The notes under the pieces are model-generated. The model ran no database searches and had not been told where the DNA came from. It saw only the letters and a program-made list of their open reading frames with translations. This document shows positions 6,115 to 32,891 of a stretch of 34,352 nucleotides of DNA, in pieces. The DNA is from Thermoplasmatota archaeon. GTDB taxonomy: Archaea > Thermoplasmatota > Penumbrarchaeia > Penumbrarchaeales > Penumbrarchaeaceae. The stretch is taken from assembly GCA_016928095.1 (NCBI GenBank), contig JAFGLL010000096.1, forward strand, positions 1 to 34,352, in the 5' to 3' direction. Positions within the stretch are counted from its first letter, which is position 1. The number at the start of each line of letters is the position of its first letter. A program made the position numbers and the translations under genes.

Positions 6115-6249
6115 CTAATACACAGTATCAATGTCTAAAGATGGGAATCCTTCATTCACACCGAATGAATCAAGGTATTCCTCGAAAAGTAAATCTGCAA
6201 GATATGAACCATCCTGTCCGGTTATACCAGTGATCAATGCTGTTTTCTC
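6115..6249 (-). pseudogene. Truncated gmd (GDP-mannose 4,6-dehydratase) N-terminal remnant
   Basis: Minus-strand translation ...[44 protein letters not shown]; matches [23 protein letters not shown] of the intact gmd at 8739. Confidence 0.75.
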
Positions 6250-6290
6250 AATTGTTCAACCCGTTCATTTCATACAGTCCGGATAATGAA

Positions 6291-6489: not shown

Positions 6490-6610
6490 AAATCCTTTCG
6501 GGAGACCTCTTCGAAGGATAAGAACGGAATTCCGCTTTCATATGCAAGTGATCTTCGCTTCCCATTTCCCCTCTTCACACATCCATCCGCAAATACCTGA
6601 AAATAGATGT

Positions 6611-10328: not shown

Positions 10329-11501
10329 ATGCCAAGGAAGAAGCAGTACAGGTTCACGTCGGAGTCGGTCACTGAGGGGCACCCGGATAAAATGGCCGAC
10401 CAGATATCGGATGCTGTTCTGGATTCCCTGCTCTCGCAGGACCCCCTGTCGAGGGTCGCCTGCGAGACGCTGCTGACAACCGGGATGGCCCTGGTGGCAG
10501 GAGAGATAACGACCAAGGGCTATGTTGATGTCCCTGGCGTTGTCAAGGAGACGGTGAAGGGGATCGGATACGATAGTTCCAGCCTCGGGTTCGACCACAG
10601 ATCCTGCGCGGTCCTGACATACATCCACAACCAGTCCCCCGATATCGCGAAGGGGGTCGACCGCGACAACGCACACAGGTTGGAGCAGGGGGCCGGGGAC
10701 CAGGGTCTCATGTTCGGATACGCCAACGATGAAACGCCCGAGCTCATGCCAATGCCGATCGCTCTCGCTCACCGGGTCACCATGAAACTGGCGGAGGTCA
10801 GGAAGAAGAAGGTCCTGAAATATCTCGGGCCCGACGGGAAATCGCAGATCACGGTGGACTATATCGATGACATTCCATCAAAGGTCTCCGCGGTGGTGGT
10901 GGCCTCCCAGCATCGTGAAGGTATAGATCACGACACCATCAAGCAGGACCTCATCAAGAAGGTCGTCATGGAAGCGATACCGAAAGATATGCTGTCCTCC
11001 GAGACAATGTTCCATGTCAACGAGACGGGAGCGTTCGTGTTCGGAGGCCCCGCCGCGGATACCGGTCTCACCGGACGAAAGATAATCGTGGACACCTACG
11101 GAGGGGTGGGCTCCCACGGAGGAGGTGCGTTCTCCGGGAAGGACCCGTCCAAGGTGGACCGTTCCGGTTCATACTATGCGAGGTACATCGCGAAGAACCT
11201 GGTCAAGGCAGGCCTTGCAAGGAAGGTGGAGGTCCAGATCGCTTATGCCATCGGGGTTGCCGAGCCGGTCTCGGTGATGGTCGATGCCTACGGGACGAAC
11301 GCTGTACCGGAAGAGGACATCGAAGGCCTCGTCCTGAAGAACTTCGACATGAGGCCAGCAGCCATCATTGATCAGCTTGACCTTCTCAGGCCCATCTACA
11401 GGAAGACGGCTGCCTACGGGCACTTCGGAAGGGAGCTGCCCGAGTTCACCTGGGAGAGAACGGACATGGCATCCCAGCTCCGGGATGAGGCAGGGTTGTG
11501 A
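10329..11501 (+). CDS. metK: S-adenosylmethionine synthetase, bacterial/eukaryal-type
   Basis: [76 protein letters not shown]. Confidence 0.96.
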
Positions 11502-11505
11502 CCAT

Positions 11506-12786: not shown

Positions 12787-12854
12787 TCCCATAGGCCGCT
12801 ATACAACCCCTCAACGGGATAATTATTTCTAGGGTGGACAACTAATCCCCCTGG

Positions 12855-13871
12855 ATGCTTTGCTTAAAATGCGGCCAGCGGGAGCAGTTCGCAGACAATC
12901 TCTGCGAGGAATGTTTCCGAGCGAGCGTTCAACCCATCTCTCTGCCTCCGGTGATACACGGGAATGTGTGCAGGACATGCTTCAGGCTGCAGAAGGGCAG
13001 GTCATGGCTGGAGATCGAAGCATCGATCGAGGATGCAGCCGTCCACCTTGCAAAGCTTAATATCGGGATATCCGGCGATGCCCAGAACCCCAGGGTCGAG
13101 CTCTCGGTCGACCTTCAGGACAGTTCCGTTTTCAGGATCTCGGGAAAGGCCAGCTCTGTCTTCAAGGGAGTGATCGTGGAACAGACCCTGTCAACGGAGG
13201 TCAGGTTCCATCTTCAGTCCTGCCCGTTCTGTTCCAGGCAGAGAGGTAACTATTTCGAGGCGGTGATACAGCTTCGGGGCCTCGACACCCTGACGGAGAG
13301 ACAGATCGATGAGCTCCTGCAGAGGATCAGGGACGAGGTCTACTCGACCTCTCTGAAGGACCCCAGGACCTTCATAAGCAACGAGGTGAAGGTCAGGGGG
13401 GGACACGACCTTTACATGGGAGAGAACTCACACGCCCGTCAACTGGCCCAGAAACTGCATGACGAGTATGGCGGGGAGTTCAAGTGGTCATCGTCCCTCT
13501 ACGGTAACAAGGACGGACGGGACATCTACAGGCATACCTATCTCGTGAGGCTCCCCGGATTCGTGGTCGGTGATTATCTGGTAAAAGAGAGCAATGCATA
13601 TCTCGTCACCAAGGTCTTCAAGAGGGTCCAGCTGAAGGAGCTCTCCACAAGGAGAGATATCACGGTCGATCTCCAGGATGCAATGTCCATGAGGATCTTC
13701 AAAGCCGAGCATGTCGAGGTGGAGCTGGTGGTCATCATGCAGACCGATAAGGAGGTGCAGTTGCTCCATCCCACGACAATGAGACCGGTGGACCTGCTGA
13801 AACCGGAACCTGTAACGTTCGGGGAGAAGGCCAGATGCGTTTATATTGAAGACGAGCTGTATCTTGTCTAG
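12855..13871 (+). CDS. NMD3-family protein (archaeal homolog of 60S ribosomal export protein)
   Basis: N-terminal CLKCGQREQFADNLCEECF, later CRTCFRLQKGRSW and CPFCSRQRGNYFEAVIQLRG typical of NMD3. Confidence 0.92.
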   Translation: MLCLKCGQREQFADNLCEECFRASVQPISLPPVIHGNVCRTCFRLQKGRSWLEIEASIEDAAVHLAKLNIGISGDAQNPRVELSVDLQDSSVFRISGKASSVFKGVIVEQTLSTEVRFHLQSCPFCSRQRGNYFEAVIQLRGLDTLTERQIDELLQRIRDEVYSTSLKDPRTFISNEVKVRGGHDLYMGENSHARQLAQKLHDEYGGEFKWSSSLYGNKDGRDIYRHTYLVRLPGFVVGDYLVKESNAYLVTKVFKRVQLKELSTRRDITVDLQDAMSMRIFKAEHVEVELVVIMQTDKEVQLLHPTTMRPVDLLKPEPVTFGEKARCVYIEDELYLV

Positions 13872-14716
13872 GTCATCGTTACCCTGAAGAACGTCATTTT
13901 CACGGAAAGTGAATCAACGTTGTATATTGTGATCGTGAAGGTCCCGGTGTTCGCGTCATAAACCGTTACATAGTCCCCGGGCGAGCTGAGCGATTCTTCG
14001 GACAACATATCATCGATCGTCTTCTGCCATACCTCTTCCTGTTCCGTATGGATCACAATGGTGATCGTCTGATCTTCAAGGGCGTAGTCCGATGATTCTT
14101 CAACAAGCAGTGAAGAGGAGATCATGTAGCTCCCGGCCCCACTGAAACCCACATCTGTCCCTTGTATGTTCTGAAGAAGGACATAGACCCTGAGGTTCTC
14201 CGATACCTCACCCTTATCCAACATGTCCACCATTATGTTGGGTGGCCCCTTCAGGACAGATGAGTCTCCCTGGTCCCTTATGATCGCCCCACCTTCAAGC
14301 AGTATGTCCTGGTCCTCGACGTAAAGGTTGTCGGAGCGATAGAGTATCGTACCCCTGCTCTGACCGTAAGTGAATCCCCCACCGGAAACGGACATCTGAC
14401 CCATCTCCTCCTCGATGGAGAGAGAGCCTGTCATCCTCCCGAACCCGAATACCGGCCCTCCTCTGGAACCAAGGGTCATCTTGGTCGTCATCGATGTACC
14501 AGGGTCGCCCCCCACCGATAATGTGTCAAGACCTGATTTTAGGTCCATGAAGGAATCCATCACATTGTTCAGGGTCTGAGCCTCGATATCCTTGCCCCAA
14601 GCTGGCATGTAGGTGGAAAATACCATACCCATGAATGATATTATGATGGCCGTTATCATTATCATGGATACGACATTGGTCACACCATCCGTTCTCTCTA
14701 CCCCTACCGACCTCAT
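13868..14716 (-). CDS. Pilin-like protein (single N-terminal TM, archaeal type IV pilin-like)
   Basis: DGVTNVVSMIMITAIIISFMGMVFSTYMPAW hydrophobic N-terminus followed by beta-rich ectodomain; 4-nt overlap with the upstream gene. Confidence 0.6.
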   Translation of the reverse strand: MRSVGVERTDGVTNVVSMIMITAIIISFMGMVFSTYMPAWGKDIEAQTLNNVMDSFMDLKSGLDTLSVGGDPGTSMTTKMTLGSRGGPVFGFGRMTGSLSIEEEMGQMSVSGGGFTYGQSRGTILYRSDNLYVEDQDILLEGGAIIRDQGDSSVLKGPPNIMVDMLDKGEVSENLRVYVLLQNIQGTDVGFSGAGSYMISSSLLVEESSDYALEDQTITIVIHTEQEEVWQKTIDDMLSEESLSSPGDYVTVYDANTGTFTITIYNVDSLSVKMTFFRVTMT

Positions 14717-15573
14717 TTGTCCACCTCCATATCACCAATACGTGCAAATAAGCTTTCGATACCTGGAAGTTCGATGGTCAGGTACTGGCCCGGGTCACCC
14801 CAATCAGCAGGCGTCACAAAATCGAAATCCGAACCTTCCACCAATCCCTTCTCCGTGAGATAACCTTTAAGATAGTTGTACCAGGCGACCTCACCGATCC
14901 CGTTGACCTTTATGACAAGTTGCTCTGTGGGACCTATGTTCCGTTCAATATCGGAATAACCAGCCATCCTGATCTTCAACGGAACGGTTTCTATCCCCGA
15001 AATCTTCCATTGTTCACCTGCCATCCCGTAGAGGAACAGCTGCATGTTGTACCTGGAACCGGACTCCGAAACAGTGATATCCGGGTAGGAAGACATGACG
15101 TCGGTGCCAAGTTGCTCACGGACCACTCCGCCAGCAGTGAAATGATATTTCTGATCATGGAAGTAGTAATTGTTGGATTCAAAGGTAATGGCCCCGTTGA
15201 TGGAATTGAGGATATAATCCGTTGTACCCCTCACGATCAGGTCCATATGAAAGGTCGTAGGGTCAGGTGAATGTGTCAGGATACCTGAGGACCTTGCCAC
15301 GGTCAGGTATGGATTTCCGGGTGTGCCCATGGTCACCCGGTTCAGTATCATCGTGTTGGTATCCCTTGTGGTTATCAATGAGTTCATGGATGTCCTTATC
15401 CTCAGCATGGAATCCTCAACGTCGGTGACATGCTCCATATCATCCTCCCTTCCGATCCTGTCCCCGTACTGGATAAGATAATTGGAACCCACGGATAGCA
15501 GGATGGATATCATCAATACGGATGTCACCATGATGGCGTCTCCCCTATCGTTCAGACCCTTGAAGACCTTCAT
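14713..15573 (-). CDS. Pilin-like protein (single N-terminal TM)
   Basis: NDRGDAIMVTSVLMISILLSVGSNYLIQYGDRI; similar to its downstream neighbour in layout (DVEDSMLRIRTSMNSL / NNVMDSFMDLKSGLDTL). Confidence 0.6.
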   Translation of the reverse strand: MKVFKGLNDRGDAIMVTSVLMISILLSVGSNYLIQYGDRIGREDDMEHVTDVEDSMLRIRTSMNSLITTRDTNTMILNRVTMGTPGNPYLTVARSSGILTHSPDPTTFHMDLIVRGTTDYILNSINGAITFESNNYYFHDQKYHFTAGGVVREQLGTDVMSSYPDITVSESGSRYNMQLFLYGMAGEQWKISGIETVPLKIRMAGYSDIERNIGPTEQLVIKVNGIGEVAWYNYLKGYLTEKGLVEGSDFDFVTPADWGDPGQYLTIELPGIESLFARIGDMEVDK

Positions 15574-18500
15574 CGATCTGGCCCCCTGACCGTATTCCCT
15601 CTTCTGCTTCCCATGAGAATCAGTAGCAATGATGCAGCGGATATCAGCAGTAACAATGGCATCAGGTCCACCGTCCCATTCCGATATGAGGTTACCGATA
15701 CTAAAATATCTTCATCCTCTTGAGATCCCTCCACGGATCCCTGGTTCCCATCGGTCGATGGTCGAGAGAGATCGGCAGCACTGGCCATATCCCACTCGCA
15801 CGACCATGAACCTGATCTTGTTGATTCAAGGGATTCCCCGTACACCTTAACATCATCTATATACATACCCTTGAAATCAGCCTCCTCACAGTGTATCCCA
15901 TCTATATTGGTCACGATCCTGAAGCGGATCACGATCACGTTCCCGGTGTAACCGTTCAGGTTCATCGTCAAATGTGTTATTGATGATGCGGGGACCCAGT
16001 TACGGTCACCCTCATTTTCCATGATGCCCGTGAAGGATCGGTCGTCCTCCATATTATCCGATAAATCTCCCTCGGTCCCGCTCACCTTCCATGCAGCCCT
16101 GACACCGAAGTTCAGAGGTGACCAGGATTGACCATTGTCACGGGAGATCTCCACTCTGAACCCGTCGGGAGGTCTTCCGTCCTGAATTTGGATGTTGAAA
16201 CGGGTATAGAACTCCATATAGACATACTTCGCATTGGTCAGATCTATAGGTCTCGTATACAGCGAGTTGTCGATCCCGTCATGGAAGTCGTCGCTCAAGG
16301 TAACCCCGCCCGCAAACCAGGCATTGGTCCCGCTGTGCGTCGTTCCAGCCGAAATAGACCCTTGCACCAACCTCCATGTGTCAAGCGAGCCAGCGGTCAC
16401 CGGCACCTCATCGGCCCGGGACACAACGACCTTGACATCATCGAGCCACCACCCATCTCCCGTTCCTCCTCCATATTGGATGTAAAAGAACCTTATCTTG
16501 ACCTGGTCCCGCAAACCTTCAGGGACGTTCTTCAGGATATCGAATTGAGCGACCTCCCATGAAAAGGACCCTTTCGCGCTCCTTCCATTGTAGGCCCAGG
16601 TGATGGAGTTGCCAAACGAATCCTTCCTCTCATATCCGGGATAAAGGCTTCCCGTATAGAAACCATTGAGCGGGGTGATGTACTTCCAGTCCCAATCGTT
16701 GGTAGGATCCCCATCCAGGTTCGTGTCCACCAGCGGGTCCCTGTACCCAACCATGACATAACCCCCGTTTGCACCGTCCACCATGTTGTATTTGTGCCAG
16801 AATGAGAGGACCGAGGTCCCGGCACTTGAAATGTCGAACTCGGGGGTGACGGTCCATTTATTCTCATTCGGGACCTCCTCCTGGCGGGTGGGCTCCGATC
16901 CCCTTGTCTGTTCCTGGGGTTTTGCCAATAGCTTCCCGATCTCTTCGAATATCAACTTCAGCTGATCGGCGGTGGGCGCGTAGAAATACTGGGCGTCTGA
17001 GGTGGTCGCGATCCTCCACAGATTGTATTCCAGTGTGCCTGATTCGAGGCAGCGGGTTCCGGTGCAGACCGCGTTCGTATAATCGAGCTTGTGATCGCCG
17101 TAACCGCTGAGGGGATTCGTTTTTATCTCCGGAAGGTAAGGAGGTTCGTGATGCTCCAGACCCAGACCGATCGTATAGATGGGTATGTCGGAATTTAAAA
17201 GGCCGTACCTGTACCGGTCAACGGAACCCGTTGAAAGAGCATACATCCAGTAAGTGCTCGTCGAGGGGGAAGCCCAATTCAGGGTGTATTTCCCCACATG
17301 GTCCTTATAATACTGCTCTCCGCTTGCCATATCTCCCCAGGGCGCCCAGTAGGTAGAACCTGCCTCGACCTTTGCATCAGCGGTAAGGATCGAAAGACCT
17401 GCTTTGTCCGAAGCCTGCAGGTCCATGCCGTCGGAGAGAACGATCACGACCGGGTCGAGTTCCGGATAGTAAGTGGACCAGTAAAGCGTATCCTTGTAAG
17501 CTTCGCCGATGCAGTCCCAGAGAATTGTGGTTCCCGCATTGTTGTTCATGGTCTCGATCTCGGCCCTGACCTTTTCACGGCCGGACGACCCGCCGAAGTC
17601 ATCACCGATCCTCACGGGATCCCTTGTTACCTTTGTCTGGATCCCTCCCTCCGATGTCCCTCTGTCCGTGGGTCCCGAAAATCTCCTCTCAGCATTCCCC
17701 TGGAAATCCCAGATGGAAACGACGACAGAATCATTGGAAAGCTCGTTCAGCAGAACAAGAGCAGCGTCCTTTGCCATGTCCAGCCAGGTCTTGTCCGCAT
17801 CCTCCGATGAACTCCTCTCTCTCATAGAAGCCGAATCGTCGATCACGAAACTTATCAGGACATCCGCATTTCCCTTAACCTCCCCGGTGGTTTCCTCAAG
17901 CTGGTAGGAATAAGGTGCACTCTTGTAGGTATCGCTGACCGTTTTGAGCCCGTGGCTCATTTCTGTATCCCAGGAACTGAGAACATTGGTTTGAGGATCA
18001 TCGTCCATGGGATCGAAAAAATCCAGAGGATTCTCTCCGTTGATCATGGCCACCAGTGAATCGTGTTCGAAGTTCTCATATCCTCCGCCCTCCATGTCAT
18101 CCCAGAAGAAGTAAACCTCGATGGTCCTGGTAACCACATTATTCCATACATCGAAGAACTCGTCGCAGGCATCGAACCAGTCTATCACAACCTTGATCGT
18201 CCTGGTCCCTGCATACTGTGGCTCCCATATCGCTTCGATGGTCATCTGCCTCATCGGGTCAACGAATATGTACCTGGAACTGAAGAGCGTCCCACCGTCC
18301 AGGAACCTCACTGTACCCCATCCTGACTCGCCACCTATGTTCGCCAGCTTCAATGTCACCAGATATGTATTTCCGATCGACGGATGGTCGTGGTCTATCT
18401 CAAGAAGCATGTTGCGGGATACCAATTCCGGTGCCTCGATGGGTGTATCGAACCACTTCAGTGAGAGGAAAACCACCTCCTCCAATGGGTATTCAAGGTC

Positions 18501-21500
18501 CGGCGTTCCAAGATCCGGATCACTGGGTGATCCTGCAAGCTCATCCATGTTCCATGAATGGAAAATGGTCCTAAAGTAATCGCCCACAACTTCATCATGA
18601 TCATAATGGTGCCAGTGCTGCGATGAGGCAATGGGACCCGCACTGGCATCGTCCGTTCTGAATGCGCTTTTAACGGTAGAATCATCAGGAGAATAGGTAG
18701 TTATTGGCTGGAAGATGAACTCTCCATCACCGGCCAAATCCGATGAACCCAGTTCCAGACCCATGTAGACCTCGGGCCCGAAGACACCCGTTCTCTCTCC
18801 CCATAATGAATTTCTCTCCAATTGTTCCGGAGAGGCCGATAACGGTTCCACCCCGAGATAATCTCTCAGGAACCCGTGATTCGATGTTGTCAGATCCGGA
18901 TCCGAGATCAAGTGGTCCCCTGCCCCCGAGACATCCTCAAGCAGATACCTTCCGGTGAGCATCAGGTTCTCGTTATGATCGCTTCCCAGGAATAACGCCT
19001 CTTCGTAAATACCGTTCAGGTATTTTGCAAGGTTCAGAATGTCCGGATCGGTCAGTGTTTCCATATCATGGTCAGCCAGACTACCGGAATCACCGGTGAC
19101 CCATATAACCGAATTGTATCTCTTCAGCTCTTCTACGGTCGGACCGGACCCGAACACCCAAGCGCTGGTATCGTAATAGTTCTCTGTCGTGATCACATAA
19201 TGATCGAAACCCATGAGTTGAAGTGATCTGACAATTGCCTGCGACGGTTCTCCCGATGGATAGGGTATGGCCACATCGTCACCCTCCTCCCCGGCCAGTA
19301 CCTGATCCTCCACCCTGAAATTATCTATAGAGCCATCATCATCCACCACCAGAATGTTGTTCTGTGCAATGAATGACGCAAGAGTGGTCGTGGAATAGGA
19401 GATGTCGTTGTTGTCCTCGTTTATCTCATCGACCAGATCGTAAGGGTCCACCATTACCTCGAAATTGTAAAGACCGGACCCAAGGGCAAGCCACAACTTG
19501 TATCTGGTCTCCTCGCCACCCGAACCCCTGACGGAAGATATATCCACCGGATTGTCATCATCGGTCTTATCGCTCTTCCCTTCTGGCCATTCCTCCGAAG
19601 GTCTCGGGTCCGGTATATTGGGGGTTACCAGGAGCTTCTTCCCGTTCGGACCTATGACAGAGAATATCAAGGTAGTGGATTCTTCCTGATATCCATTGTT
19701 CCTGATGGTCACTTCGATCTCTATGGTGTCCAGGTACTTTGGGACGATCTCCTCGTTGTCGATCGGGTCTCTGTGCCAGTTACCATCTTCATCCTGTGAA
19801 AGGAGCAGGAGTTCCATCTTCGTCACCGCAAGATCCCTTCCCGTCTGTATCTCCCAATCCATCCATTTCATGACCCTGGCGATAATGTCTATCTTCTGGT
19901 TGAGATATCTTGTCTGGGTGATGTCCCAGGCCATGACCACGGCCCGGTACTGCGGTTCTGTCTTGATATCATCGACCTCTGACCAGGCCCGTATCGTATT
20001 CACATATCCGGTTCCTATCTCATCTTGGTATGACAATACACCCAGGGGACGGTCAAAATATGGCGACATGTCCTTTTCAATGACATCGATCCTCGGGTAA
20101 AAGAGTGTGGACAGACCATTTCCTTCCGCCAACTCATTGAGAAGTATATTGTAGGTCCCCTCCTCGACCTCCGTTATCCCGCCCGGGAGACCATCAATTC
20201 CTATCACCCGGTTCGACTCTGCCAACGGAAGGTCCACACCCGGTATTATCCTCTTGATACCAAGGTAATTGTGAACGAAATTCGACGCATCCGTGAATTC
20301 GCTCTTCCCCTCCCAGAAGGGATCCGGTTCATTCGCAACCTTTTCGATACCGTCATATTGGAAATACTGTATCAGACTGTCTATCGGGTTTGCCCCCACC
20401 AGCAGGAAATAGCCGTTGCTGTCCATGTACTTCATTATCTCCTGTATATTGCCACCGTATGACCCCTCCGGAGTGTTGGAGAGTGCATCCTTTCTGTAAC
20501 CAGTCACCCAGATGACGATGTCGAAATCCTCCATTGCCGGGGTGGGAACATTGCTCCGATCATATGTGTAGGCTGGTGCATCCCTGTCACCGTATTGATC
20601 GCTGACCTGCTGGGCGATAACTGTCGAATCGACGTTTATCCCCGCACCTATCAGAGATTCCATTACACTGCTCGTCATATCCTTCGAGGCGGTCTTTTCA
20701 CCATCGTTATCGACAAGGAGAACACGGGGGAAGACCTGAATCATACCAAGACCGATGTTATCATTTCCGTCCATTACATCCCCCTCGGAGGGCAGGATCC
20801 CGACAGGCTCATCATAACCGTCGAAGGCATTGACAACTGCATATACGGTCTGGGTCCCGCCGGGAAGGTCCGATCTTGCCACAAGGTCCAGATCGATGAA
20901 CAAGTAGGCACCTGGAAGTATCTCCAGGTTGGGGATGATGCAGGTCGGGAATACCCGGTCATCCTGCAGAAGAGTATCATCGTGGTCCATCCTCCATGCC
21001 TCGTCCAACCCTTGATCATCCATCCTCCAGTCATAGACCTGGACACCCTTTTCCTCTCCAATGTCGATGGTCCTCTGGGCCGGAGCGTAGAGTGATACCA
21101 CAAGATGGACGCCCATATCCTTGGTTATCATCTCGGATCCGGAGTTCTGGACCACGATCGTGACAGTTACCCTGTCACCTCTTTTTGGATTGTAATCGGA
21201 AAAATAGACATCGTATATGCCCGGGTCCGGACCGGGTACCTGTTCGGGGTTAATATCCTTATCAACCCGGTATTTTCGTGTGACGATATTATTCCTGTAA
21301 TCCCTCTCACCACCTTCGAACGGGAGCACCATGACCTTCAATTCATGGTCGCCCAGTGTCCTAGGGGTCTGTTTTGCCTCGTCCAAGGTGAGTACGATCT
21401 CCAGTGTGTGGTCTTCACCAAGGATCTGGTATCCATCGTCGTCATCCTCGATCGCCACTCCCATTTCATCCCTGTGGGTGTAAGAGAGGCCAGTTATCTT

Positions 21501-22157
21501 GAGCACATCCAGATCATCACGGATCTGAGTGTTGGATATCGTTGTATCGCTATCAGGTACTATCCATGGAACTGACATGGCATCACCGATGTTCTTGACC
21601 TCCAGGGTGATGATGCATTTCCCATAGTCCAGGATATATCCCGTCACACTTATACCCGGCCGATGAATGGATAACCGTGTCACTGCAAGGTCCGGGGTCC
21701 CATCCGGGATCATCGATTTTGTGAGCTCGTTATTCAGCACGACCGTTCTCACACCGTCCTGCTTGACCGTGGTTACGATGATCGTGAGTTGAAGACCTGA
21801 CCCGTAAAGAGGAAGATCTATCGAATCACCATTGTCCCATGAATCGTCCGTCCTGCCATTGGCAGGATCATAATATTTATAGGACCAGGAAGTGGTCCCG
21901 TCGTTTATTGTTATCTCCGTCTCCGCTCCGGTCAACGTGTCCCCGCCCCGGTGTGTGATCGTGAGGATCTCACCTCTCAGTGATGCAAAAAGATCAACGT
22001 AGAGGCCTTCCTCCATATCCTGTATCTGTGAGGTCCATAATGCCATACCACCGACCATCATCAAGGAGATACCAAGAAGAAGGATGGTGCCTACCACTTC
22101 CGATACTCCATGGAGGGTCCTTTTTCCGTCATCTCTTCCACCTAAGAATTTTTTCAA
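15570..22157 (-). CDS. Giant pilin-like surface protein with CARDB-like repeats, VWA domain and C-terminal TM
   Basis: 2195 aa; N-term HGVSEVVGTILLLGISLMMVGGMALW; VFVWA MIDAS FVIDDSASM at about 17823-17840; C-term LLLLISAASLLLILMGSRRGN. Confidence 0.85.
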   Translation of the reverse strand: MKKFLGGRDDGKRTLHGVSEVVGTILLLGISLMMVGGMALWTSQIQDMEEGLYVDLFASLRGEILTITHRGGDTLTGAETEITINDGTTSWSYKYYDPANGRTDDSWDNGDSIDLPLYGSGLQLTIIVTTVKQDGVRTVVLNNELTKSMIPDGTPDLAVTRLSIHRPGISVTGYILDYGKCIITLEVKNIGDAMSVPWIVPDSDTTISNTQIRDDLDVLKITGLSYTHRDEMGVAIEDDDDGYQILGEDHTLEIVLTLDEAKQTPRTLGDHELKVMVLPFEGGERDYRNNIVTRKYRVDKDINPEQVPGPDPGIYDVYFSDYNPKRGDRVTVTIVVQNSGSEMITKDMGVHLVVSLYAPAQRTIDIGEEKGVQVYDWRMDDQGLDEAWRMDHDDTLLQDDRVFPTCIIPNLEILPGAYLFIDLDLVARSDLPGGTQTVYAVVNAFDGYDEPVGILPSEGDVMDGNDNIGLGMIQVFPRVLLVDNDGEKTASKDMTSSVMESLIGAGINVDSTVIAQQVSDQYGDRDAPAYTYDRSNVPTPAMEDFDIVIWVTGYRKDALSNTPEGSYGGNIQEIMKYMDSNGYFLLVGANPIDSLIQYFQYDGIEKVANEPDPFWEGKSEFTDASNFVHNYLGIKRIIPGVDLPLAESNRVIGIDGLPGGITEVEEGTYNILLNELAEGNGLSTLFYPRIDVIEKDMSPYFDRPLGVLSYQDEIGTGYVNTIRAWSEVDDIKTEPQYRAVVMAWDITQTRYLNQKIDIIARVMKWMDWEIQTGRDLAVTKMELLLLSQDEDGNWHRDPIDNEEIVPKYLDTIEIEVTIRNNGYQEESTTLIFSVIGPNGKKLLVTPNIPDPRPSEEWPEGKSDKTDDDNPVDISSVRGSGGEETRYKLWLALGSGLYNFEVMVDPYDLVDEINEDNNDISYSTTTLASFIAQNNILVVDDDGSIDNFRVEDQVLAGEEGDDVAIPYPSGEPSQAIVRSLQLMGFDHYVITTENYYDTSAWVFGSGPTVEELKRYNSVIWVTGDSGSLADHDMETLTDPDILNLAKYLNGIYEEALFLGSDHNENLMLTGRYLLEDVSGAGDHLISDPDLTTSNHGFLRDYLGVEPLSASPEQLERNSLWGERTGVFGPEVYMGLELGSSDLAGDGEFIFQPITTYSPDDSTVKSAFRTDDASAGPIASSQHWHHYDHDEVVGDYFRTIFHSWNMDELAGSPSDPDLGTPDLEYPLEEVVFLSLKWFDTPIEAPELVSRNMLLEIDHDHPSIGNTYLVTLKLANIGGESGWGTVRFLDGGTLFSSRYIFVDPMRQMTIEAIWEPQYAGTRTIKVVIDWFDACDEFFDVWNNVVTRTIEVYFFWDDMEGGGYENFEHDSLVAMINGENPLDFFDPMDDDPQTNVLSSWDTEMSHGLKTVSDTYKSAPYSYQLEETTGEVKGNADVLISFVIDDSASMRERSSSEDADKTWLDMAKDAALVLLNELSNDSVVVSIWDFQGNAERRFSGPTDRGTSEGGIQTKVTRDPVRIGDDFGGSSGREKVRAEIETMNNNAGTTILWDCIGEAYKDTLYWSTYYPELDPVVIVLSDGMDLQASDKAGLSILTADAKVEAGSTYWAPWGDMASGEQYYKDHVGKYTLNWASPSTSTYWMYALSTGSVDRYRYGLLNSDIPIYTIGLGLEHHEPPYLPEIKTNPLSGYGDHKLDYTNAVCTGTRCLESGTLEYNLWRIATTSDAQYFYAPTADQLKLIFEEIGKLLAKPQEQTRGSEPTRQEEVPNENKWTVTPEFDISSAGTSVLSFWHKYNMVDGANGGYVMVGYRDPLVDTNLDGDPTNDWDWKYITPLNGFYTGSLYPGYERKDSFGNSITWAYNGRSAKGSFSWEVAQFDILKNVPEGLRDQVKIRFFYIQYGGGTGDGWWLDDVKVVVSRADEVPVTAGSLDTWRLVQGSISAGTTHSGTNAWFAGGVTLSDDFHDGIDNSLYTRPIDLTNAKYVYMEFYTRFNIQIQDGRPPDGFRVEISRDNGQSWSPLNFGVRAAWKVSGTEGDLSDNMEDDRSFTGIMENEGDRNWVPASSITHLTMNLNGYTGNVIVIRFRIVTNIDGIHCEEADFKGMYIDDVKVYGESLESTRSGSWSCEWDMASAADLSRPSTDGNQGSVEGSQEDEDILVSVTSYRNGTVDLMPLLLLISAASLLLILMGSRRGNTVRGPDR

Positions 22158-22170
22158 GTGAGCACCCCCT

Positions 22171-25100
22171 TCAAGGTATCCCCCTTCTTCGTGATACGGC
22201 CAAAAAAGCCATAGGGGCAGCGATCAACAGAGATGACAATATCCAGGGAATTGCGTCATTTCTTCCTTCTACGTCCGTTCTGCATTCGGGCGCATCCAGG
22301 TCATCCCCGGTCAGGATATCGTCCGTTCCGCTCGTATATGGCTTTCCATCGTTTTTTGGATCGACAAATTCCCGGAACATATCCGGAACTGCAGGATCCC
22401 CCTCTTCCTGGATGTCCCCGGAGGTATCGACATCCGTTCCGCCCCTTGTGGAAGATAAGGAGGTCCCGCATATGAACACATCATCGATGTAAATCCCCAT
22501 ATCCTTGGTATTGTCAGCATAGTGCGTCAGGTCAGTGTTGGTGACCAATCTGAACCTGATGTTGATCACGTTACCTATGAAAGCAGCAAGGTCGGTGTTC
22601 AATCGGGTCAATGTACTTGAATGGACCCAGTTCTTACCTTTGCCTTCGAGGTCCAGACCAGTATAGGACTTGCTATCGATGATCCCATCCTCGTTATCAT
22701 CTCCCGTACCGGAAACCCCCCAGGCAGCCCTGACACCCAGGTTCAAGGGGACCCATGTCTGTTTGTTATCCGTTGAGACCTCCACCCTGAAACCATCCGG
22801 AGGTCTCCCTGATCCAGTATCGATATTGAACCGGAACCTGGCCTCGAGTATGGCCGTTCTTGCATTTGTGAGGTCGATCTGCCGCGTATAGAGCGAGTTG
22901 TCAACACCTGACATGAGGTCCCCTCCGACATTGACATCACCCACCCACCATGCATGGGTACCGCTGTATGTGGTACCTGTAATGATTGAGCCCACCTGCA
23001 GTCTCCATCCGTCCGTGGAAGAGCCCTTGTTCGTGTTCTCATCATCAGTGGATATCTTGATGGACATGTCGTCGATCATCCATCCATAACCTGTTCCGCC
23101 GTCGAGATATTTGTAGAGGAAGCGCACCCTGATCTCATTGCCGGTATAACCGTCAAGGTTGACCGAGACATGGTCCCACCCCAGGGTACCACCTCCGGAC
23201 ATGCCGTTGTAACACCATCTCATGTCCCCGCCGAGCCCATCCTTTAGACCGACAGTACCCCAAGCGTCCACAAGAAAGTTACCCGTATAAGGCTGGTCGG
23301 GCTGAATGTATTCCCAGACCCATTGTATTCCATTGTAGGTCCCGACCTGGATCACTCCTCCGTTTGCTCCGACCTTCATGTTGTATTTATTCTTGAATGT
23401 CATCCAGGCCGAATCTGCATAGGTGAGATCTATCGTATTGGTCTCCATCCATTTGTCGCCGGGGATCTCATTTCCGTCGGTCCATGGGCCGGCAGCCCTT
23501 GTCGGTTCCTCCCCCCTTGTGGACGCCTCTGCTTCGGCCTCTACATGTAGGAATATGTCTCGGAATATCGTGTCCAAAGAGCTCGAATCTGGAGCGTAAT
23601 GATACTGGGCCCCGGATGTCTCGGCGATCTGCCAGAGATCGTACTCGCTGGTGAACGGGTAATAGAGTCCTATACCTGGTGATTCCGGGTCTTCCTCGTG
23701 TGGGTCGATCCCCAGACCCACGGTGAATACCGGGATGGGTGCATGGATCAAACCGGTCCTTGTATGATCATTCAGGTCCAGCCATGCTCCTGTCAATGGA
23801 ACGGAATCCCCGCCCACTCTCCATATATCATGCCCGGAATTAGTATCCTGATCTACGTAGGTAGTGTCACTATCTCCCCATTTTGATCCTGTATCAACAC
23901 CCCATGTGTGATCCAAATATGTTGTCCCCGGCTCCGATCCCGGGCAATAATCATCACTTCCATCCTCTCTTCCATTGGATCCAATATCATCTCCGGCCGT
24001 CAAGGTAATTGCAGCGATGTAGACCTCTCCGGCCCTCTTGTTCTCTTCCGCATAACTGATGGTCGCACCTATGGAGTCCCATAGAGGGGTAAAACCGGTA
24101 GCGGTCAAACTATCTATAAGGTCCATTGTAGATGCCCGGTTCGGATCGGTCATATACGTGAATGTCTGCCTTACCATTGGATCCGGGTTCGATGAGTCTG
24201 TATTGAAAGTGAAGATTGCGAGCCTGTCGTCCGGTGCAAGGAGGTCAACTATGTTCTTCGCGGCTATCTTCATGTCAGCAATGGGATTACCTGACATGGA
24301 CACGGAGGTATCAAGCATCATTACAAGATCGATATCCTTCCTGGTCGTTCCTGCAAGGTTCGGTTCATACATATAGAAGGAATTCGGAGAACTGTAGAAC
24401 TCTCCCTGGACCACCGTGTTCTCGACTTCCGTGTTCACATGGAACCCGTTCATTGAACTCCATTCGTCCTCTATATTCGTATAGGTGGGTTCTGCCATGT
24501 AATCAAGTGTTCCCTCCCCGTTTATCATCTGTATAGTGGAATCGTGGTCCCAGTTGCCATCACCAGATTCCATATCATCCCAGAAGAAATATACCTCGAT
24601 GACCATCGACGGAACGTTGTTGAGAACATCGAACACCTCAAGGGCATCGTTGTATTTGTCTATCCAGATCGTGATGGTCCGCTCTCCAGCATAAAGGGGT
24701 TTCCAGATAGCCTCGATGGTGGTCGTGGTATCCGGGTTCAGATAGATGTTCTCGGACTGGAACAGGGTATTCCCATCCGTGAACCTGACGGTCCCTCCTC
24801 CGGACGCGCCACCGATGTTCGCCACCCTTGTATGGATAACGTATGAATTCCCTATGACGGGGGTCAAGATGTTACTTTCGACTTCCGTACTCTCTCGTTC
24901 CAACCCTATATCGCATGACCTTCCCACCAGTTCAGGCTCGTCCTCGGGTGTTTCGAACCAGTGAAGCGGAAGATATAGCAATTCCATCAACGGGGTTTCG
25001 TCCGATGTCCAGGAGGACCGGGTGAGCTCCCATGAATGAAGGACCACACGGAAGTTCTTATCGTCAAGGACATCGTCAGGTGTGATGTCGGTATCATCGT

Positions 25101-28100
25101 ATGCATACTGGATGGATGCAAGCACACCGTCGGCCGAAGGTCCAGCATAAAGACCCTCGACAGACCTTGCATAAGGGTCCGGCGTTGCAGGTGCATAGAT
25201 CGTGAGGGAAGACACATTGAAAGATGTAACAAACTCGGGAAAATCTATCCCAAAAAAAACCTTGTCGATGGGGGTTCCATCCTTTGGGCCTTCCAGAGAA
25301 TCTGCCATGACAGTCTCTCCGGCAACAGCCTTTATTCCAAAATAATTTTGAATGATATCGAAAAGGCCCATTGTCGTCCCGTCCGAAAAAATGATCTCAT
25401 CTTCCGAGGCTGTAAGGTCGGTCATGAAGTTATTTCCGATCACCATCAGGTTCTCGTGATGGTCTTCCGGAAGGTACTTTGCCTCTGGATAATTGCCATC
25501 GAGGTACTTCTTGATGGCCTCCAAATCCTTATCGGTGAAGGTCTCCCGGGATATGTCATCATCAAGACCCGAACCTCCGGTTATCCATATCACTGAATTG
25601 TACCTCTTCAGGTCAAAGATGGTAAGGCCGCTGTCATAACCCCAAACATCATCAATGAACGTGTTCGTAACCTCATGTTCATAGTAATCCTCTATCTCGA
25701 CCATTTCCAACGATACCAGCGTTTCAATGACGGCCAATGATGGCTCTCCTCCGATCATGGAATAACTTATTAAACGTTTGTCCTTAATGCTTTTTTCCAT
25801 ACCTGAAGGAAAATTATCATCGGACATATCGTCATCCACCACGAGGATGTTGTTCTTGGTTATGAACGATGTTATCGTCGATGTTGAATAGGATATATCG
25901 TTGTTATCCTCGCTGATCTCGGTTATGAGCGTGTAAGGATCCACCACTACCCTGAAGGTATAGGTTCCGACACCAACTGCAAGCCAAAGTTTGTAAATTT
26001 TGATCTCGGTGCCTCCGCCGGATAGTCCGTTGATGTCATAAGGATTATCATCCTCATCCTGCTCAATATCTGCTTCGGGGTAACCATCCGGATAGGGTAT
26101 GTCGGGTGTGATCGGGACCTCCATCCCGTCCGGTCCGGTGACATAAAAAACCACCGAGGAGCTTTCCATGTTGGGCCCGTTGTTCCTTATATATGCTTCG
26201 ATGAGGATCGTGTCCAGATATTTTGGTGGATTATCCTCATCTACAGGGTGCATCCAGCCGGATCCCTCCTCCCTGAGGACGTATAGGTTCATCCTTGTAA
26301 CTGCAAGATCGCGACCCACTTCCACCTCCCAGTCGAACCATTTCAGAACATTGGAGAAGAGGTCGATCTTCTCGTTAAGATATTTTATCTGAGTGACGTC
26401 CCAGGCCATGACAACGGATTTATACGAGGCTCCCAGCCTAACCGGGTCAGGAGTGCTGAAGGCCCGGACCGAGTTGAACATCGCGGTCTCCTTACCGGAT
26501 TCCTCCTGGTTGGTCAGGATCCCTATGGGTATCTCGAATATATCCTCAACGATCGTATCCCTTGGGGTGAAAAGGTCCATATCGGTGTTGTCCTCGGATG
26601 GATCGAGGAGGACGATATCGAAATCCCTGGGCAGCACACCATCCTGATGGTAGTTTATCAACGTCAACGAGGGGTCTTCTGGTCCGCTGGGGGGTATGTT
26701 CAACTTGTTCTTGTAGATGATGACGGAACTCCCGCTCTCCCTTTCGGAGGTTATCTCGATATCATATAAATGATCATATGAGAAGATCGATAGGGGGATC
26801 GTTACAAATGTTCCGGACGACCATTCTTCCCCTGAGGTCTCGGTCAGACCGGAATACGTGTCGCTGAATACGATCACTCCTCCCTGGTCGCTGATCACTA
26901 TCGAGGTCGTATCGCCGTCAAGAGGGTCTCCTTCCTCGTGCGAGATCATCAGGATATTTTGCGTGGTATCTATCCTGGCCATCAGATCCACGTAAATGTC
27001 CATGCTGTAGAACCTGGGTATCTCTTCGGAGGATGACACCTTGACATCCGTCCAAACCTTATGGATCCCAAGATATTTGTACAGAAGATCACTGGCATCC
27101 ATGCTCTGTGGATCGTTAGAAGTGATCAGCTGATTGGTTGTATACAGGCCTTCCTCCATCTGAAAATATTTCATGAGCCCGTCGAAGGGATCGGTCCCAA
27201 CGATCATCAGGTATCTGTTGGAATCCAGGTATTTGATCAGCTCCTGAACGTTCCCCCCTATGCCAGTCTCCGGATCATTGGGGGAGTTCGTCAATGGGTC
27301 CTTTTTATAACCGGTCACCCAGATCACGATATCATAATCCTCCATGGCAGGTGCGGCTATCTCTTCCTGATTGTAGCTGAATGCCGGAGCGTCGCGCGGG
27401 TCTCCCTCGTCAAAAACCTGCTGTGTGGTGTAGGTCTTGTCCACGGTAACACCTGCACCGATCAGCGATTCAAGGACAGCAGAGGTCATGTCCCCGTAGG
27501 ATTCTGTCAATGCCTCGTCATCATCGACCAGCAGGATCCTGGGAAGCACCTGTAGCTCTCTCAGGCCGATATTATCTCTCGGAACATCTCCGCTTGGCTT
27601 CTCACTTGTGATCGAATAGTGGTCTATCGCCTGTTCATCGCCCATTTCGTTGTAAGCATCGACAACGGCATAGACCCGCTGCTTTCCGCCGGGAACATCG
27701 ACCCTTGCTTCCAACGAAAAATAATAGAAAAGATAGGCTCCGGGAAGGAGTTCAAGATCCGTCCTGACGCATGTCGGGAACATCTCATCATTGCTCAGGG
27801 GCCCGGCGGATTGACTTACCTCGCTTCTCCATTTACCAGAGTAACCCTCCTTGTCCATTCTCCAATCATATACCTCGTTGTTGGCGTAGGAGATCGCAAC
27901 ATCTTCCCCCTCATGATACATTTTGGGTTCAAACGTTGTAACGATCATGGTCACCCCCATATCTTGAGTGATAGGTTCATCCCCGGAATTCTGGACGATC
28001 ACCGTAACTGTGATCTCTTCACCGCTGTTGGGAGCTTCGTCTGAGAAATAGATATCGTATATGCCCGGGTCCGGTCCGTGTATGATCACCGGCGTGAGCT

Positions 28101-29019
28101 CTTTGTCAACCCTGAACTTCCTTCCGATGTAATTGTTCCTGTAATTCAGTTCTCCTTCGAAAACGGGGATGACCTTGACGTTCAAAGTGTGGATCCCGAG
28201 AGATCGGGGTTCATCTTCAGATACATCCCATTTGAACTCGAAAACCATGTATTCACCGTTCTTGAGCTCTCCGTAGTCACCATAGTCCTCATCATGAGGT
28301 TGTTTGGAAGAACTATAATGTGTGTACTTTACATCCGTGAACTCAAGTGGATCATCGGAGTCGAATATCCTGAGATTGGATATTCGGTTGCCGGATTCTT
28401 CCGCGAAGTGTACGGTTTCCATGTCGGATCCGTAATTATCTACCTGGATGGAGATATAGAAAGGACCGTCCTCGAATATGGTGTCACCAGCCGTTGTTCC
28501 ATCGCTCTTAAGGATCTGTATCCGGGTCACTGCAAGGTCAGGAAGATCTCCTGTTACGAAAGATTTGGTCAGCTCATTGCTCAGGAGAACAATGGAGGTT
28601 CCTCCTTCCAACACGGATGTGACCGTTACCTTGAAAAGGTTCGGTATGTCAGGTCCGGAGATGTCTATCCTGACCTCTTCACCCGGACCCCATCCATTAT
28701 CACCCGACAGATCGTAATAGCTGCTTTTTATCTTGGGTCCAATGGAGGGGGCGCTGACGATGATCTGCGAGTTCATACCATCAAGGATGTCGCCACCCTT
28801 ATGAACGATCACCAGGTCATTCCCTTGAACGGTGGCCCAGAGGTCAACGTACAGGGCGTCCTCTCCCTCGTCGATATTGGCTGTCCACAGTGCAATACTT
28901 CCAGCAAGCATCACTGATATGCCTAGTAAAAGGATCGTCCCTATGGCCTCGGAAACACCAAGGATACGTTTAAAAGATGGATCACCAGGGCCTTTCTTAA
29001 TATGAGCAGAGCTCCGCAT
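22171..29019 (-). CDS. Giant pilin-like surface protein with CARDB-like repeats, VWA domain and C-terminal TM (paralog)
   Basis: 2282 aa; N-term LGVSEAIGTILLLGISVMLAGSIALW; MIDAS MMLDTSVSM encoded at 24295-24312; C-term ILSSLLIAAPMAFLAVSRRRG. Confidence 0.85.
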   Translation of the reverse strand: MRSSAHIKKGPGDPSFKRILGVSEAIGTILLLGISVMLAGSIALWTANIDEGEDALYVDLWATVQGNDLVIVHKGGDILDGMNSQIIVSAPSIGPKIKSSYYDLSGDNGWGPGEEVRIDISGPDIPNLFKVTVTSVLEGGTSIVLLSNELTKSFVTGDLPDLAVTRIQILKSDGTTAGDTIFEDGPFYISIQVDNYGSDMETVHFAEESGNRISNLRIFDSDDPLEFTDVKYTHYSSSKQPHDEDYGDYGELKNGEYMVFEFKWDVSEDEPRSLGIHTLNVKVIPVFEGELNYRNNYIGRKFRVDKELTPVIIHGPDPGIYDIYFSDEAPNSGEEITVTVIVQNSGDEPITQDMGVTMIVTTFEPKMYHEGEDVAISYANNEVYDWRMDKEGYSGKWRSEVSQSAGPLSNDEMFPTCVRTDLELLPGAYLFYYFSLEARVDVPGGKQRVYAVVDAYNEMGDEQAIDHYSITSEKPSGDVPRDNIGLRELQVLPRILLVDDDEALTESYGDMTSAVLESLIGAGVTVDKTYTTQQVFDEGDPRDAPAFSYNQEEIAAPAMEDYDIVIWVTGYKKDPLTNSPNDPETGIGGNVQELIKYLDSNRYLMIVGTDPFDGLMKYFQMEEGLYTTNQLITSNDPQSMDASDLLYKYLGIHKVWTDVKVSSSEEIPRFYSMDIYVDLMARIDTTQNILMISHEEGDPLDGDTTSIVISDQGGVIVFSDTYSGLTETSGEEWSSGTFVTIPLSIFSYDHLYDIEITSERESGSSVIIYKNKLNIPPSGPEDPSLTLINYHQDGVLPRDFDIVLLDPSEDNTDMDLFTPRDTIVEDIFEIPIGILTNQEESGKETAMFNSVRAFSTPDPVRLGASYKSVVMAWDVTQIKYLNEKIDLFSNVLKWFDWEVEVGRDLAVTRMNLYVLREEGSGWMHPVDEDNPPKYLDTILIEAYIRNNGPNMESSSVVFYVTGPDGMEVPITPDIPYPDGYPEADIEQDEDDNPYDINGLSGGGTEIKIYKLWLAVGVGTYTFRVVVDPYTLITEISEDNNDISYSTSTITSFITKNNILVVDDDMSDDNFPSGMEKSIKDKRLISYSMIGGEPSLAVIETLVSLEMVEIEDYYEHEVTNTFIDDVWGYDSGLTIFDLKRYNSVIWITGGSGLDDDISRETFTDKDLEAIKKYLDGNYPEAKYLPEDHHENLMVIGNNFMTDLTASEDEIIFSDGTTMGLFDIIQNYFGIKAVAGETVMADSLEGPKDGTPIDKVFFGIDFPEFVTSFNVSSLTIYAPATPDPYARSVEGLYAGPSADGVLASIQYAYDDTDITPDDVLDDKNFRVVLHSWELTRSSWTSDETPLMELLYLPLHWFETPEDEPELVGRSCDIGLERESTEVESNILTPVIGNSYVIHTRVANIGGASGGGTVRFTDGNTLFQSENIYLNPDTTTTIEAIWKPLYAGERTITIWIDKYNDALEVFDVLNNVPSMVIEVYFFWDDMESGDGNWDHDSTIQMINGEGTLDYMAEPTYTNIEDEWSSMNGFHVNTEVENTVVQGEFYSSPNSFYMYEPNLAGTTRKDIDLVMMLDTSVSMSGNPIADMKIAAKNIVDLLAPDDRLAIFTFNTDSSNPDPMVRQTFTYMTDPNRASTMDLIDSLTATGFTPLWDSIGATISYAEENKRAGEVYIAAITLTAGDDIGSNGREDGSDDYCPGSEPGTTYLDHTWGVDTGSKWGDSDTTYVDQDTNSGHDIWRVGGDSVPLTGAWLDLNDHTRTGLIHAPIPVFTVGLGIDPHEEDPESPGIGLYYPFTSEYDLWQIAETSGAQYHYAPDSSSLDTIFRDIFLHVEAEAEASTRGEEPTRAAGPWTDGNEIPGDKWMETNTIDLTYADSAWMTFKNKYNMKVGANGGVIQVGTYNGIQWVWEYIQPDQPYTGNFLVDAWGTVGLKDGLGGDMRWCYNGMSGGGTLGWDHVSVNLDGYTGNEIRVRFLYKYLDGGTGYGWMIDDMSIKISTDDENTNKGSSTDGWRLQVGSIITGTTYSGTHAWWVGDVNVGGDLMSGVDNSLYTRQIDLTNARTAILEARFRFNIDTGSGRPPDGFRVEVSTDNKQTWVPLNLGVRAAWGVSGTGDDNEDGIIDSKSYTGLDLEGKGKNWVHSSTLTRLNTDLAAFIGNVINIRFRLVTNTDLTHYADNTKDMGIYIDDVFICGTSLSSTRGGTDVDTSGDIQEEGDPAVPDMFREFVDPKNDGKPYTSGTDDILTGDDLDAPECRTDVEGRNDAIPWILSSLLIAAPMAFLAVSRRRGIP

Positions 29020-29129: not shown

Positions 29130-31208
29130 TCAATTCCAATCTTCTGCCTCATCGTTCAGGTCCATTGAGAACTCCATATCCCCCATGTAGGCATCGTAAT
29201 CGGCCCTGAAGACCGGGTCCAGAAGGACCTCCTTTGCCTTGTTGACACGGACCATCTCCTCCGCTGCCTCATGAGGATCTATCTCCTTGTGATGCGCCAC
29301 CCTGTCCGGGTGGAAATAGGCTGCGAGCTGCCTGTACTTCTTCTTGACCTCGGCGTCCGTAGCAGTGGGTTCCAGGCCCAGGACCTCGTAGAGGTTGTAA
29401 TCAAAATCGAACTTGCCATCGTCGTAATCTATCCTGGCGTCGTTCTCGGATGCACTGTGCTTGGCGGCGACATCCTCGTACAGCTCCCTTATCTTCCTGG
29501 CCATCTCCTCCGCCTGGGATGCGGACATGGTCTGGTCCTCGTTTATCACGAAATCGTCAGCCCTTCTCAGTTTCTTGGAAAGCATTATGATAACGAAAAC
29601 CAAAATAACGATGATCATTGCCACCAGCAACGGAATGGCGATGGTCAGGAAGGTGGTGCTCGTAACAAGGTCGATGAACTTATTGTCATTCTCGTTGACC
29701 GGAACGTCACGTACCGTGAAGCTGAATGTCACCTCGTCCTCCTCGTCACCGTCCGATACCGACATCCTGACCGAATGCACTCCACTGGTCAGGGTGAACA
29801 GCGTCTTGTTGAACAACTCACTGGTGGAATATGGTTGGATGTCATCGTCGATATACCATTCGAAGTCCATCTTTGAAAGGGGATCGTCGGGGTCGACCAC
29901 CCAATCGGTCCCGGATATCAGAATGCTCTGGTTCTTGAAGAACTCCCTTCCGTCCACTATGGTCGGGACAAAGGCCCGGGGGCCCTGGTTGATATCCACC
30001 GGGAACACGCGTGAGATGTTCTCGTTCCCGAGTACGTCGGAGGCCCTGAACTGAAGGGATGTGTTCCCCTTTCCTTCTACACCGACCGCGGTGCCTCGGA
30101 CAACTATCACCCTGTCGTCCCCCACATCCATGACATCGAGCCAATCGTTCCAAGTACCGTTCTTGAAAACCCTGTACATCACGGAGGAACTGTCAACGAA
30201 GAGCTTGTTCTTGGGTCTCTCAGTGACCGTTATCTCCCATTCGAACTCCTCATCGGTCTCCTTGGTGGCTGGATATCTCAAGGTTATGTCGGGAGAAAGG
30301 CCGTCTATCCCTATACTGAACTCCCATTGGGTCACCTTGACCTTCCAGTCCTCGGGCATCCCGGGTATGTCCATCATCAGGTGGATGCTGTCATCAGCAA
30401 GATCAGGTACCTGCAGGTCGGAGGCGAACCCTCTCTCATCCAGGGTCATATTCCATGTGGACATGCCATCGGTAAGTATCACATCGATACCCGGAAGCAG
30501 GGGTGAATAGACCGAAAGGTATTCGGTCAGATGCCAGTAACGGAACTTTATTCCACTAACCGATATGGTCGAGTTCGACCGGACCTGATCACCCTCCTCA
30601 ACCTGCTCCCCTTTCCCGTTCTCAACGATGATGCCGTAAGGCTCAAGTGTCCCGTGTACGATGATCTTGAGCTCGGAAACGGCGTCCACATCCTGCGTGG
30701 TGGAGTTCATGGATAGCGTGGGAAGCAGGGTGAACTGTCTATCATAGCTCCAATCCATGTGGAAGAAGGCCTTGAAGAAGAAGGTTGTGTTGACGTCATC
30801 GTAGGAAAAACCCACTCCGCTGATGTCCATCTGTCCGACCAGAAACTCCTGGGTGATCCCTGTCGTTACCATGTCCCAATGGAACAAGGTCTGAGATGAG
30901 GCACCTACCTTTATCCTTACCCCGAGGGAATCCAGGGAAGTGGAGTTGACATCATGGAAGATGAAGGATATGTTGTAATCCCTGTGCCCGGCCAGACAAA
31001 TATTGTTATCTGAACCTACACCATCGACAATTCCTGAATAGAGGACGGGAGAGCGGGTGGAGGAAGCCTCTCCCTGTATTGGTGCCTGGACAAGGAGACA
31101 TAGAGATAGAATGGACAGTATGATGTATCTATAGATGGATCTCGTCATGGGATTCCCTGCTATCATAGATGGGGGGCGCTCGCCAACACCTTGCATCCTT
31201 GCGTTCAC
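29130..31208 (-). CDS. Membrane protein: signal peptide, Ig/cadherin-like ectodomain, TM, cytosolic J-domain
   Basis: IYRYIILSILSLCLLVQAPIQGEA signal-like; FLTIAIPLLVAMIIVILVFVIIMLSKKLRR TM; YEVLGLEPTATDAEVKKKYRQLAAYFHPDRV...VNKAKEVLLDPVFRADYDAYM J-domain with HPD. True start may be MTRSIY at 31148. Confidence 0.85.
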   Translation of the reverse strand: MNARMQGVGERPPSMIAGNPMTRSIYRYIILSILSLCLLVQAPIQGEASSTRSPVLYSGIVDGVGSDNNICLAGHRDYNISFIFHDVNSTSLDSLGVRIKVGASSQTLFHWDMVTTGITQEFLVGQMDISGVGFSYDDVNTTFFFKAFFHMDWSYDRQFTLLPTLSMNSTTQDVDAVSELKIIVHGTLEPYGIIVENGKGEQVEEGDQVRSNSTISVSGIKFRYWHLTEYLSVYSPLLPGIDVILTDGMSTWNMTLDERGFASDLQVPDLADDSIHLMMDIPGMPEDWKVKVTQWEFSIGIDGLSPDITLRYPATKETDEEFEWEITVTERPKNKLFVDSSSVMYRVFKNGTWNDWLDVMDVGDDRVIVVRGTAVGVEGKGNTSLQFRASDVLGNENISRVFPVDINQGPRAFVPTIVDGREFFKNQSILISGTDWVVDPDDPLSKMDFEWYIDDDIQPYSTSELFNKTLFTLTSGVHSVRMSVSDGDEEDEVTFSFTVRDVPVNENDNKFIDLVTSTTFLTIAIPLLVAMIIVILVFVIIMLSKKLRRADDFVINEDQTMSASQAEEMARKIRELYEDVAAKHSASENDARIDYDDGKFDFDYNLYEVLGLEPTATDAEVKKKYRQLAAYFHPDRVAHHKEIDPHEAAEEMVRVNKAKEVLLDPVFRADYDAYMGDMEFSMDLNDEAEDWN

Positions 31209-32871: not shown

Positions 32872-32891
32872 AATGACAGGGAGGGATCCAG

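Follow-up and report, generated by a model that had tools for sequence, protein, structure and literature searches.

The first 34,352 nucleotides of contig JAFGLL010000096.1 (assembly GCA_016928095.1), from a Thermoplasmatota archaeon of the family Penumbrarchaeaceae, are called the window here. They carry a minus-strand operon with two giant genes and two small pilin-like genes. The giants are probably modular pilins that an archaeal Epd/Tad-like type IV pilus presents at its tip, with minor pilins as helpers. Five features computed here bear on this: the giants carry a pilin module, a small partner has a predicted pilin-like fold, pilus motor genes are linked, the genome has a peptidase candidate, and modules are exchanged at a fixed site. 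The reading as an oversized adhesive pilus tip is preferred because in relatives this cluster adjoins genes for a pilus motor.

The four-gene array of the first-pass annotation is confirmed, with gaps of 13, -4, and -4 nt between the open reading frames. That list lacked a further gene on the same strand, which lies 110 nt upstream of giant 1, and the operon probably comprises five genes, P0005 included.

29130..31208, minus strand: membrane-anchored J-domain protein (P0005), probable first operon gene; PF00226 and a hydrophobic stretch.
22171..29019, minus strand: giant 1 (P0001), putative modular pilin of 2282 residues, ATG start; Pfam Pilin_N, CARDB, VWA, and MAM-like.
15570..22157, minus strand: giant 2 (P0002), putative modular pilin of 2195 residues, TTG start; Pfam Pilin_N, CARDB, and VWA_2.
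14713..15573, minus strand: small pilin-like protein A (P0003), 286 residues; class III-like RGDA at residue 10; homologue of P0004; position kept in relatives.
13868..14716, minus strand: small pilin-like protein B (P0004), 282 residues; DUF7289 (PF23960), 60.6 bits; AlphaFold2 model.

The N-termini of both giants had been read as archaeal pilin-type (GVSEAIGTILLLG and GVSEVVGTILLLG). They are as quoted, and both exceed the Pilin_N cut-off of 25.2 bits in the Pfam scan.

28567..29019, minus strand: pilin module of giant 1, about residues 1-151; PF07790, 38.7 bits; 8fj5 matched by profile and fold.
21717..22157, minus strand: pilin module of giant 2; PF07790, 28.9 bits.

The first 150 or so residues of the giants are a complete PilA-type pilin with helix and beta head, and thus more than a signal, because the Haloferax volcanii pilus subunit 8fj5 is matched by sequence profile and by fold. 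A sequence profile built from 36 giant N-termini matches 8fj5 with an E-value of 4.5e-11 over residues 7-129 of 145, and also matches Natrinema PilA2 8gi2 (1.1e-5) and 9myg (5e-5), which are likewise solved archaeal pilus subunits. The AlphaFold2 model of giant residues 1-480 (mean predicted local distance difference test, pLDDT, 75) has a helix at 20-47 and beta strands at 61-150, in a block with pLDDT 84-95. In a fold search this model covers the whole 8fj5 chain, with prob 1.00 and a template modelling score on the target of 0.56. In 40/40 giants examined, a basic leader with G or A as its last residue precedes a start resembling VSE ([GA]|VSE-type site). The strict class III motif [KR][GA].. 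occurs in 10 of these 40 homologous giants and in P0003.

The two downstream proteins, earlier described as pilin-like, are of DUF7289 type. P0004 lies well above the DUF7289 cut-off of 27 bits in Pfam, and P0003, at only 12 bits, lies below it and is a divergent homologue of P0004. The P0004 model (pLDDT 88.6, predicted template modelling score, pTM, 0.81) has a 60-residue helix (10-69) followed by an all-beta head, a predicted fold that is pilin-like in outline. The small proteins fit the predicted minor pilin family arCOG02911 of euryarchaeal Clade 2 type IV pili, which is 250-550 residues long, all-beta, and prone to duplication according to Makarova et al. (PMC4858521); the two families may be the same. 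Small pilins are present in 25/25 genomes with long, well-covered giants (Fisher p 1.8e-10, uncorrected for kinship). In ten further genera (genomes G042, G068, G080, G229, G239, G165, G237, G195, G235, G243, G023, and G014), a homologue of the small proteins immediately adjoins TadA-like and TadB/C-like genes. In G014, an open reading frame of 1453 residues with a pilin-profile match precedes this homologue.

The motor linkage is direct in some relatives. In genome G013 (loci L041/L123), one strand holds, in order, giant, giant, small, small, a T2SSE ATPase, and two T2SSF genes. In genome G032 (L141), the giants, the smalls, two TadA, and two TadBC genes form one co-directional cluster with insertion-sequence-like open reading frames in between. 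Such frames (L141:13202-14532) separate a giant from the second small pilin, and the giant C-terminus there looks disturbed. The window's genome has its motor locus on another contig, C76, away from the operon, where a TadA-like ATPase is followed by two T2SSF matches. This ATPase is 54% identical to the giant-linked ATPase of G013, with 50, 36, and 28% for the three other family members. The solved chain closest to the ATPase is 2oap, which is named Type II secretion system protein. Both G013:C1 and C76 have two platform genes of one T2SSF domain each beside the TadA-like ATPase, and two separate single-T2SSF platform genes are a trait of the Epd/Tad clade (PMC6668835).

A candidate A24-type prepilin peptidase with GGADAK lies on contig C116 of the window's genome. 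Its PF01478/PF06847 matches are weak and sub-threshold; the PF01478 search missed it, and it was recovered through the sequence of a relative. Two ordinary Pilin_N pilins are encoded on contig C96. None of the three outcomes named in the first-pass annotation as refuting has come up: the genome of the window encodes a pilus motor and a candidate A24 peptidase, and relatives keep the gene order. The proposed partnership of the giants with the two pilin-like proteins is supported, as is a link to pilus machinery. A separate archaellum-type locus (FlaH/FlaI/FlaJ-like) is also present in the window's genome and relatives (L070, L078, G000:C21). One clade has a KaiC-family ATPase gene upstream of giant pairs (L111:469-1182, L113, L124); KaiC-like proteins have been linked to type IV pilus regulation (PMC4858521).

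A scan of 85,462 species with two peptide patterns, and within the limits of these patterns, gave 40 giant loci. All are in metagenome-assembled genomes labelled Thermoplasmatota, groups within it, or unresolved Euryarchaeota/archaeon. The giant N-terminal profile has matches in 75/247 Thermoplasmatota genomes, many of the weaker ones being shorter pilins and not giants. G042, a complete genome on a single contig of 1,486,778 bp, encodes a giant of 2166 residues with Pilin_N, CARDB, and VWA above cut-off. In the giant tree, read without support values, tandem pairs go back to several separate duplications inside lineages, so giant 1 and giant 2 do not trace to one ancient split. One giant pair is conserved across several genera of one clade.

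In the clade with the KaiC-family gene, a fusion of M14 carboxypeptidase and clostripain with a C-terminal transmembrane segment is encoded after giant pairs (L113:17314-20355, L121:13402-16398, and similar). The giants and smalls might be pseudopilins of a secretion-type machine, a short piston that expels proteins such as these peptidases. The position of the peptidase genes directly after the pairs in several genomes of this clade, and a motor family common to secretion systems, are in line with a piston. However, the window's operon has no adjacent protease gene, the protease has an N-terminal signal-like segment and a C-terminal transmembrane segment of its own, and the binding-type modules at the far end of the giants vary. 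A piston is highly improbable.

The far end of the giants is built around a split MAM-like domain.

24361..24588, minus strand: first piece of the split MAM-like domain, giant 1; 43% mean pairwise identity among 11 giants.
23485..24360, minus strand: VWA module within the MAM-like domain, giant 1; PF00092, 27.9 bits on the insert; DTSVS; LTAGDD replaces LTDG.
22438..23484, minus strand: remainder of the split MAM-like domain and second MAM-like domain, giant 1; 47% mean pairwise identity; InhA-like_MAM below cut-off.
16881..17888, minus strand: VWA module of giant 2; PF13519, 28.8 bits on the insert; DDSAS ... TILWD ... LSDG.

The VWA domain with a DxSxS metal-ion-dependent adhesion site (MIDAS) motif, claimed earlier for both giants, is present, reading DTSVS in the first giant and DDSAS in the second. 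The VWA matches stay sub-threshold on the full chains and pass the threshold in a scan of the insert by itself. CARDB exceeds the Pfam cut-off in both giants, and InhA-like_MAM in giant 1 reaches 22.5 bits, under its cut-off of 26.9. The giants' stalk includes two copies of a conserved repeat domain (VDDD ... W-TG) that has no Pfam name. The compared VWA insert of giant 2 gave ankyrin-type chance matches only among solved structures. Pilin_N and VWA occur on the same protein, and the idea of a pilin fused to a VWA adhesin in one chain is upheld, with a putative adhesin role.

In the alignment of these giants, conservation is highest in the MAM-like parts, and the insert is much less conserved, at 25% mean pairwise identity. 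The insert lies between the first part of the MAM-like domain and its remainder, and its length ranges from 17 to 1117 residues across 35 giants. The usual first module is VWA, with DxSxS in nearly all VWA inserts. Later modules in some giants are LamG and PA14 (L108), Big_5 repeats (L111, L112, L121, L124), or a MAM domain (L130), and two giant inserts have no Pfam match. VWA is one of several cargo modules exchanged at one fixed site. A second VWA giant of 2203 residues is encoded elsewhere in the window's genome (L053:3906-10517, G000:C59), with a secretory-type N-terminus, Big_7, Big_3_3, and thrombospondin-type repeats; VWA matches resembling it were seen in other family members.

Hypervariable cargo held at one constant position, together with tandem duplications that recur, resembles the interchangeable Kil tips, a bacterial precedent (PMC12075869). 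The giants could serve contact with other cells, in predation or symbiosis, instead of surface attachment. We regard this use as very unlikely, as the inserts have no lytic or toxin-like enzymatic module in Pfam.

The C-termini bear on a further alternative.

22189..22248, minus strand: C-terminal hydrophobic segment and basic tail, giant 1; seen in the sequence and, among relatives, only in the window's family.
15609..15665, minus strand: C-terminal hydrophobic segment and basic tail, giant 2; seen in the sequence.

The hydrophobic segment with a basic tail noted in the first-pass annotation exists in both giants. It is not a general trait of giants: it was seen in the window, L106, and L108, and most other giants stop at most 2 residues past the last MAM domain. 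Archaeosortase processing of the segment was considered and rejected, since PF09721 has no match in three genomes of the window's family; matches are present in G013, G018, G029, and G042. The giants might instead be membrane-tethered coat or adhesin proteins that never enter a filament, with the pilin helix as an anchor only, the C-terminal segment as a second anchor, and the small proteins as accessory coat. The transmembrane segment with its basic tail and the very large size agree with this, and, with no archaeosortase match in those three genomes, a sorting function of the tail is not evident. Type IV pilus loci are also described as encoding S-layer-like proteins that have a C-terminal transmembrane segment (PMC4858521). 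Tethering is nevertheless unlikely: the N-terminus is a whole pilin including the beta head, most relatives lack the C-terminal segment, and the giants are linked to TadA/B/C genes.

Several observations weigh against the pilus-tip reading. In the window's family the C-terminal segment could hold the giants in the membrane and impede their release into a filament. Giant and motor genes are not neighbours in most of the phylum. The overall confidence of the giant N-terminal model is moderate (pLDDT 75, pTM 0.42), and a Foldseek search gave the P0004 model no solved structural relative below an E-value of 1e-3. The window's giants (LG|VS, HG|VS) and P0004 miss the strict class III motif. Giant 1 reads LTAGDD where the usual L[TS]DG stretch stands, so its MIDAS metal site may be altered or degraded, as judged from sequence.

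On the pilus-tip reading, the operon would encode subunits of an archaeal type IV pilus of the type that combines a TadA-like ATPase with two platform proteins of one domain each. Each giant chain runs from the PilA-type pilin module through a stalk, made up of beta domains plus two repeat domains, to the split MAM-like domain with its VWA or other binding module and a last MAM-like domain. Processing by the A24 peptidase would cut off the short basic leader. The giant helix would dock with the small DUF7289-type minor pilins, starting or capping the filament, so that the giant is incorporated and localised at the tip. The motor at C76 would extend the filament from the small Pilin_N pilins of C96, and the VWA-bearing end on its long stalk would adhere to a surface, cell, or matrix as ligand.

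P0005 combines an extracellular part with a cytosolic J-domain (DnaJ PF00226, 58.9 bits at residues 605-672, HPD present), and a hydrophobic segment precedes the latter. A J-domain gene adjoins giants in three other genera (L106/L035, L108/L036, and L042), L042 being from another family. J-protein profile matches in L081 and L142 were not counted, as they are without a terminal J-domain. P0005 may hold Hsp70 at the membrane during the export of the very long giant chains.

The bacterial PilY1/PilC tip adhesins had been proposed as counterparts. By homology this fails, as the giants have no PilC beta-propeller match in Pfam, and PilY1 is not a pilin. Better analogues are Streptococcus sanguinis PilB and Caulobacter CpaL with CpaJ/CpaK. 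Like S. sanguinis PilB (VWA) and PilC (lectin), the giants join an N-terminal pilin module to a grafted module, with a DxSxS MIDAS and partner minor pilins (PMC8179133). Unlike them, the giants are of the archaeal PF07790 type and the bacterial proteins of the IPR012902 type (PMC8179133). The giants are also mostly 1500-2650 residues long, with the cargo inside a MAM-like domain beyond a long stalk; mature PilB has 454 residues, and the most extreme modular pilin in the bacterial survey has 860 (PMC8179133). Caulobacter CpaL likewise is a VWA-bearing pilin with two small minor pilins (CpaJ/CpaK) and a TadA/B/C motor (PMC12607857). In contrast, CpaL is far smaller and bacterial (PMC12607857). 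The Tad minor pilin families (TadG/CpaL) have no Pfam or NCBIfam match in the window proteins, and the likeness is in organisation only. By analogy, the giants may operate like the bacterial systems PilB, CpaL, and Kil tips.

A relation by descent is a speculative and rather improbable extension. The giants and two small pilins would be the archaeal counterpart of the bacterial Tad VWA minor-pilin complexes (TadE/F/G, CpaJ/K/L), an adhesive or mechanosensing tip would have reached bacteria with the motor from an archaeal pilus, and in Thermoplasmatota it would have become a very long stalk with exchangeable cargo.

Among archaeal systems, the motor ATPase with two tadC-like genes resembles the euryarchaeal Clade 2 type IV pili, and giant VWA pilins were not found in the available part of that account (PMC4858521). 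Very large proteins in the type IV pilus loci of methanococci, among them DUF2341 candidates, are proposed there as tip adhesins, and the window's giants differ from these in having no DUF2341 match in the Pfam scan (PMC4858521). The earlier claim of an undescribed system goes too far. The small-pilin and motor core resembles the euryarchaeal type IV pili described in 2016 (PMC4858521), whereas no earlier description of the giant family was found. This negative covers giant modular pilins of Thermoplasmatota in the open-access literature, with most subscription papers outside its scope.

Other genes surround the operon. On its far side (10329-13871 of the window), genes for SAM synthetase, an adenosylhomocysteinase-like protein, and NMD3 are conserved neighbours in several family members. 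A surface-sugar cluster near the operon (1239-8739) comprises glycosyltransferase family 2, GDP-mannose 4,6-dehydratase, and epimerase genes. Divergently transcribed genes for zinc-ribbon coiled-coil proteins (31393-34352) are kept beside the operon in G006 and G004.

If the giants are such pilins, modular pilins, known from a bacterial survey, would also occur in archaea, where they exceed that survey's most extreme example more than twofold in length. Their design is that of carrier plus cargo, in which the scaffold is constant and the module is exchangeable. How a cell exports a pilin of more than 200 kDa is a further question, and the linked J-domain protein offers a lead on it. The giants would offer a testable answer to how Thermoplasmatota pili recognise surfaces or partners.

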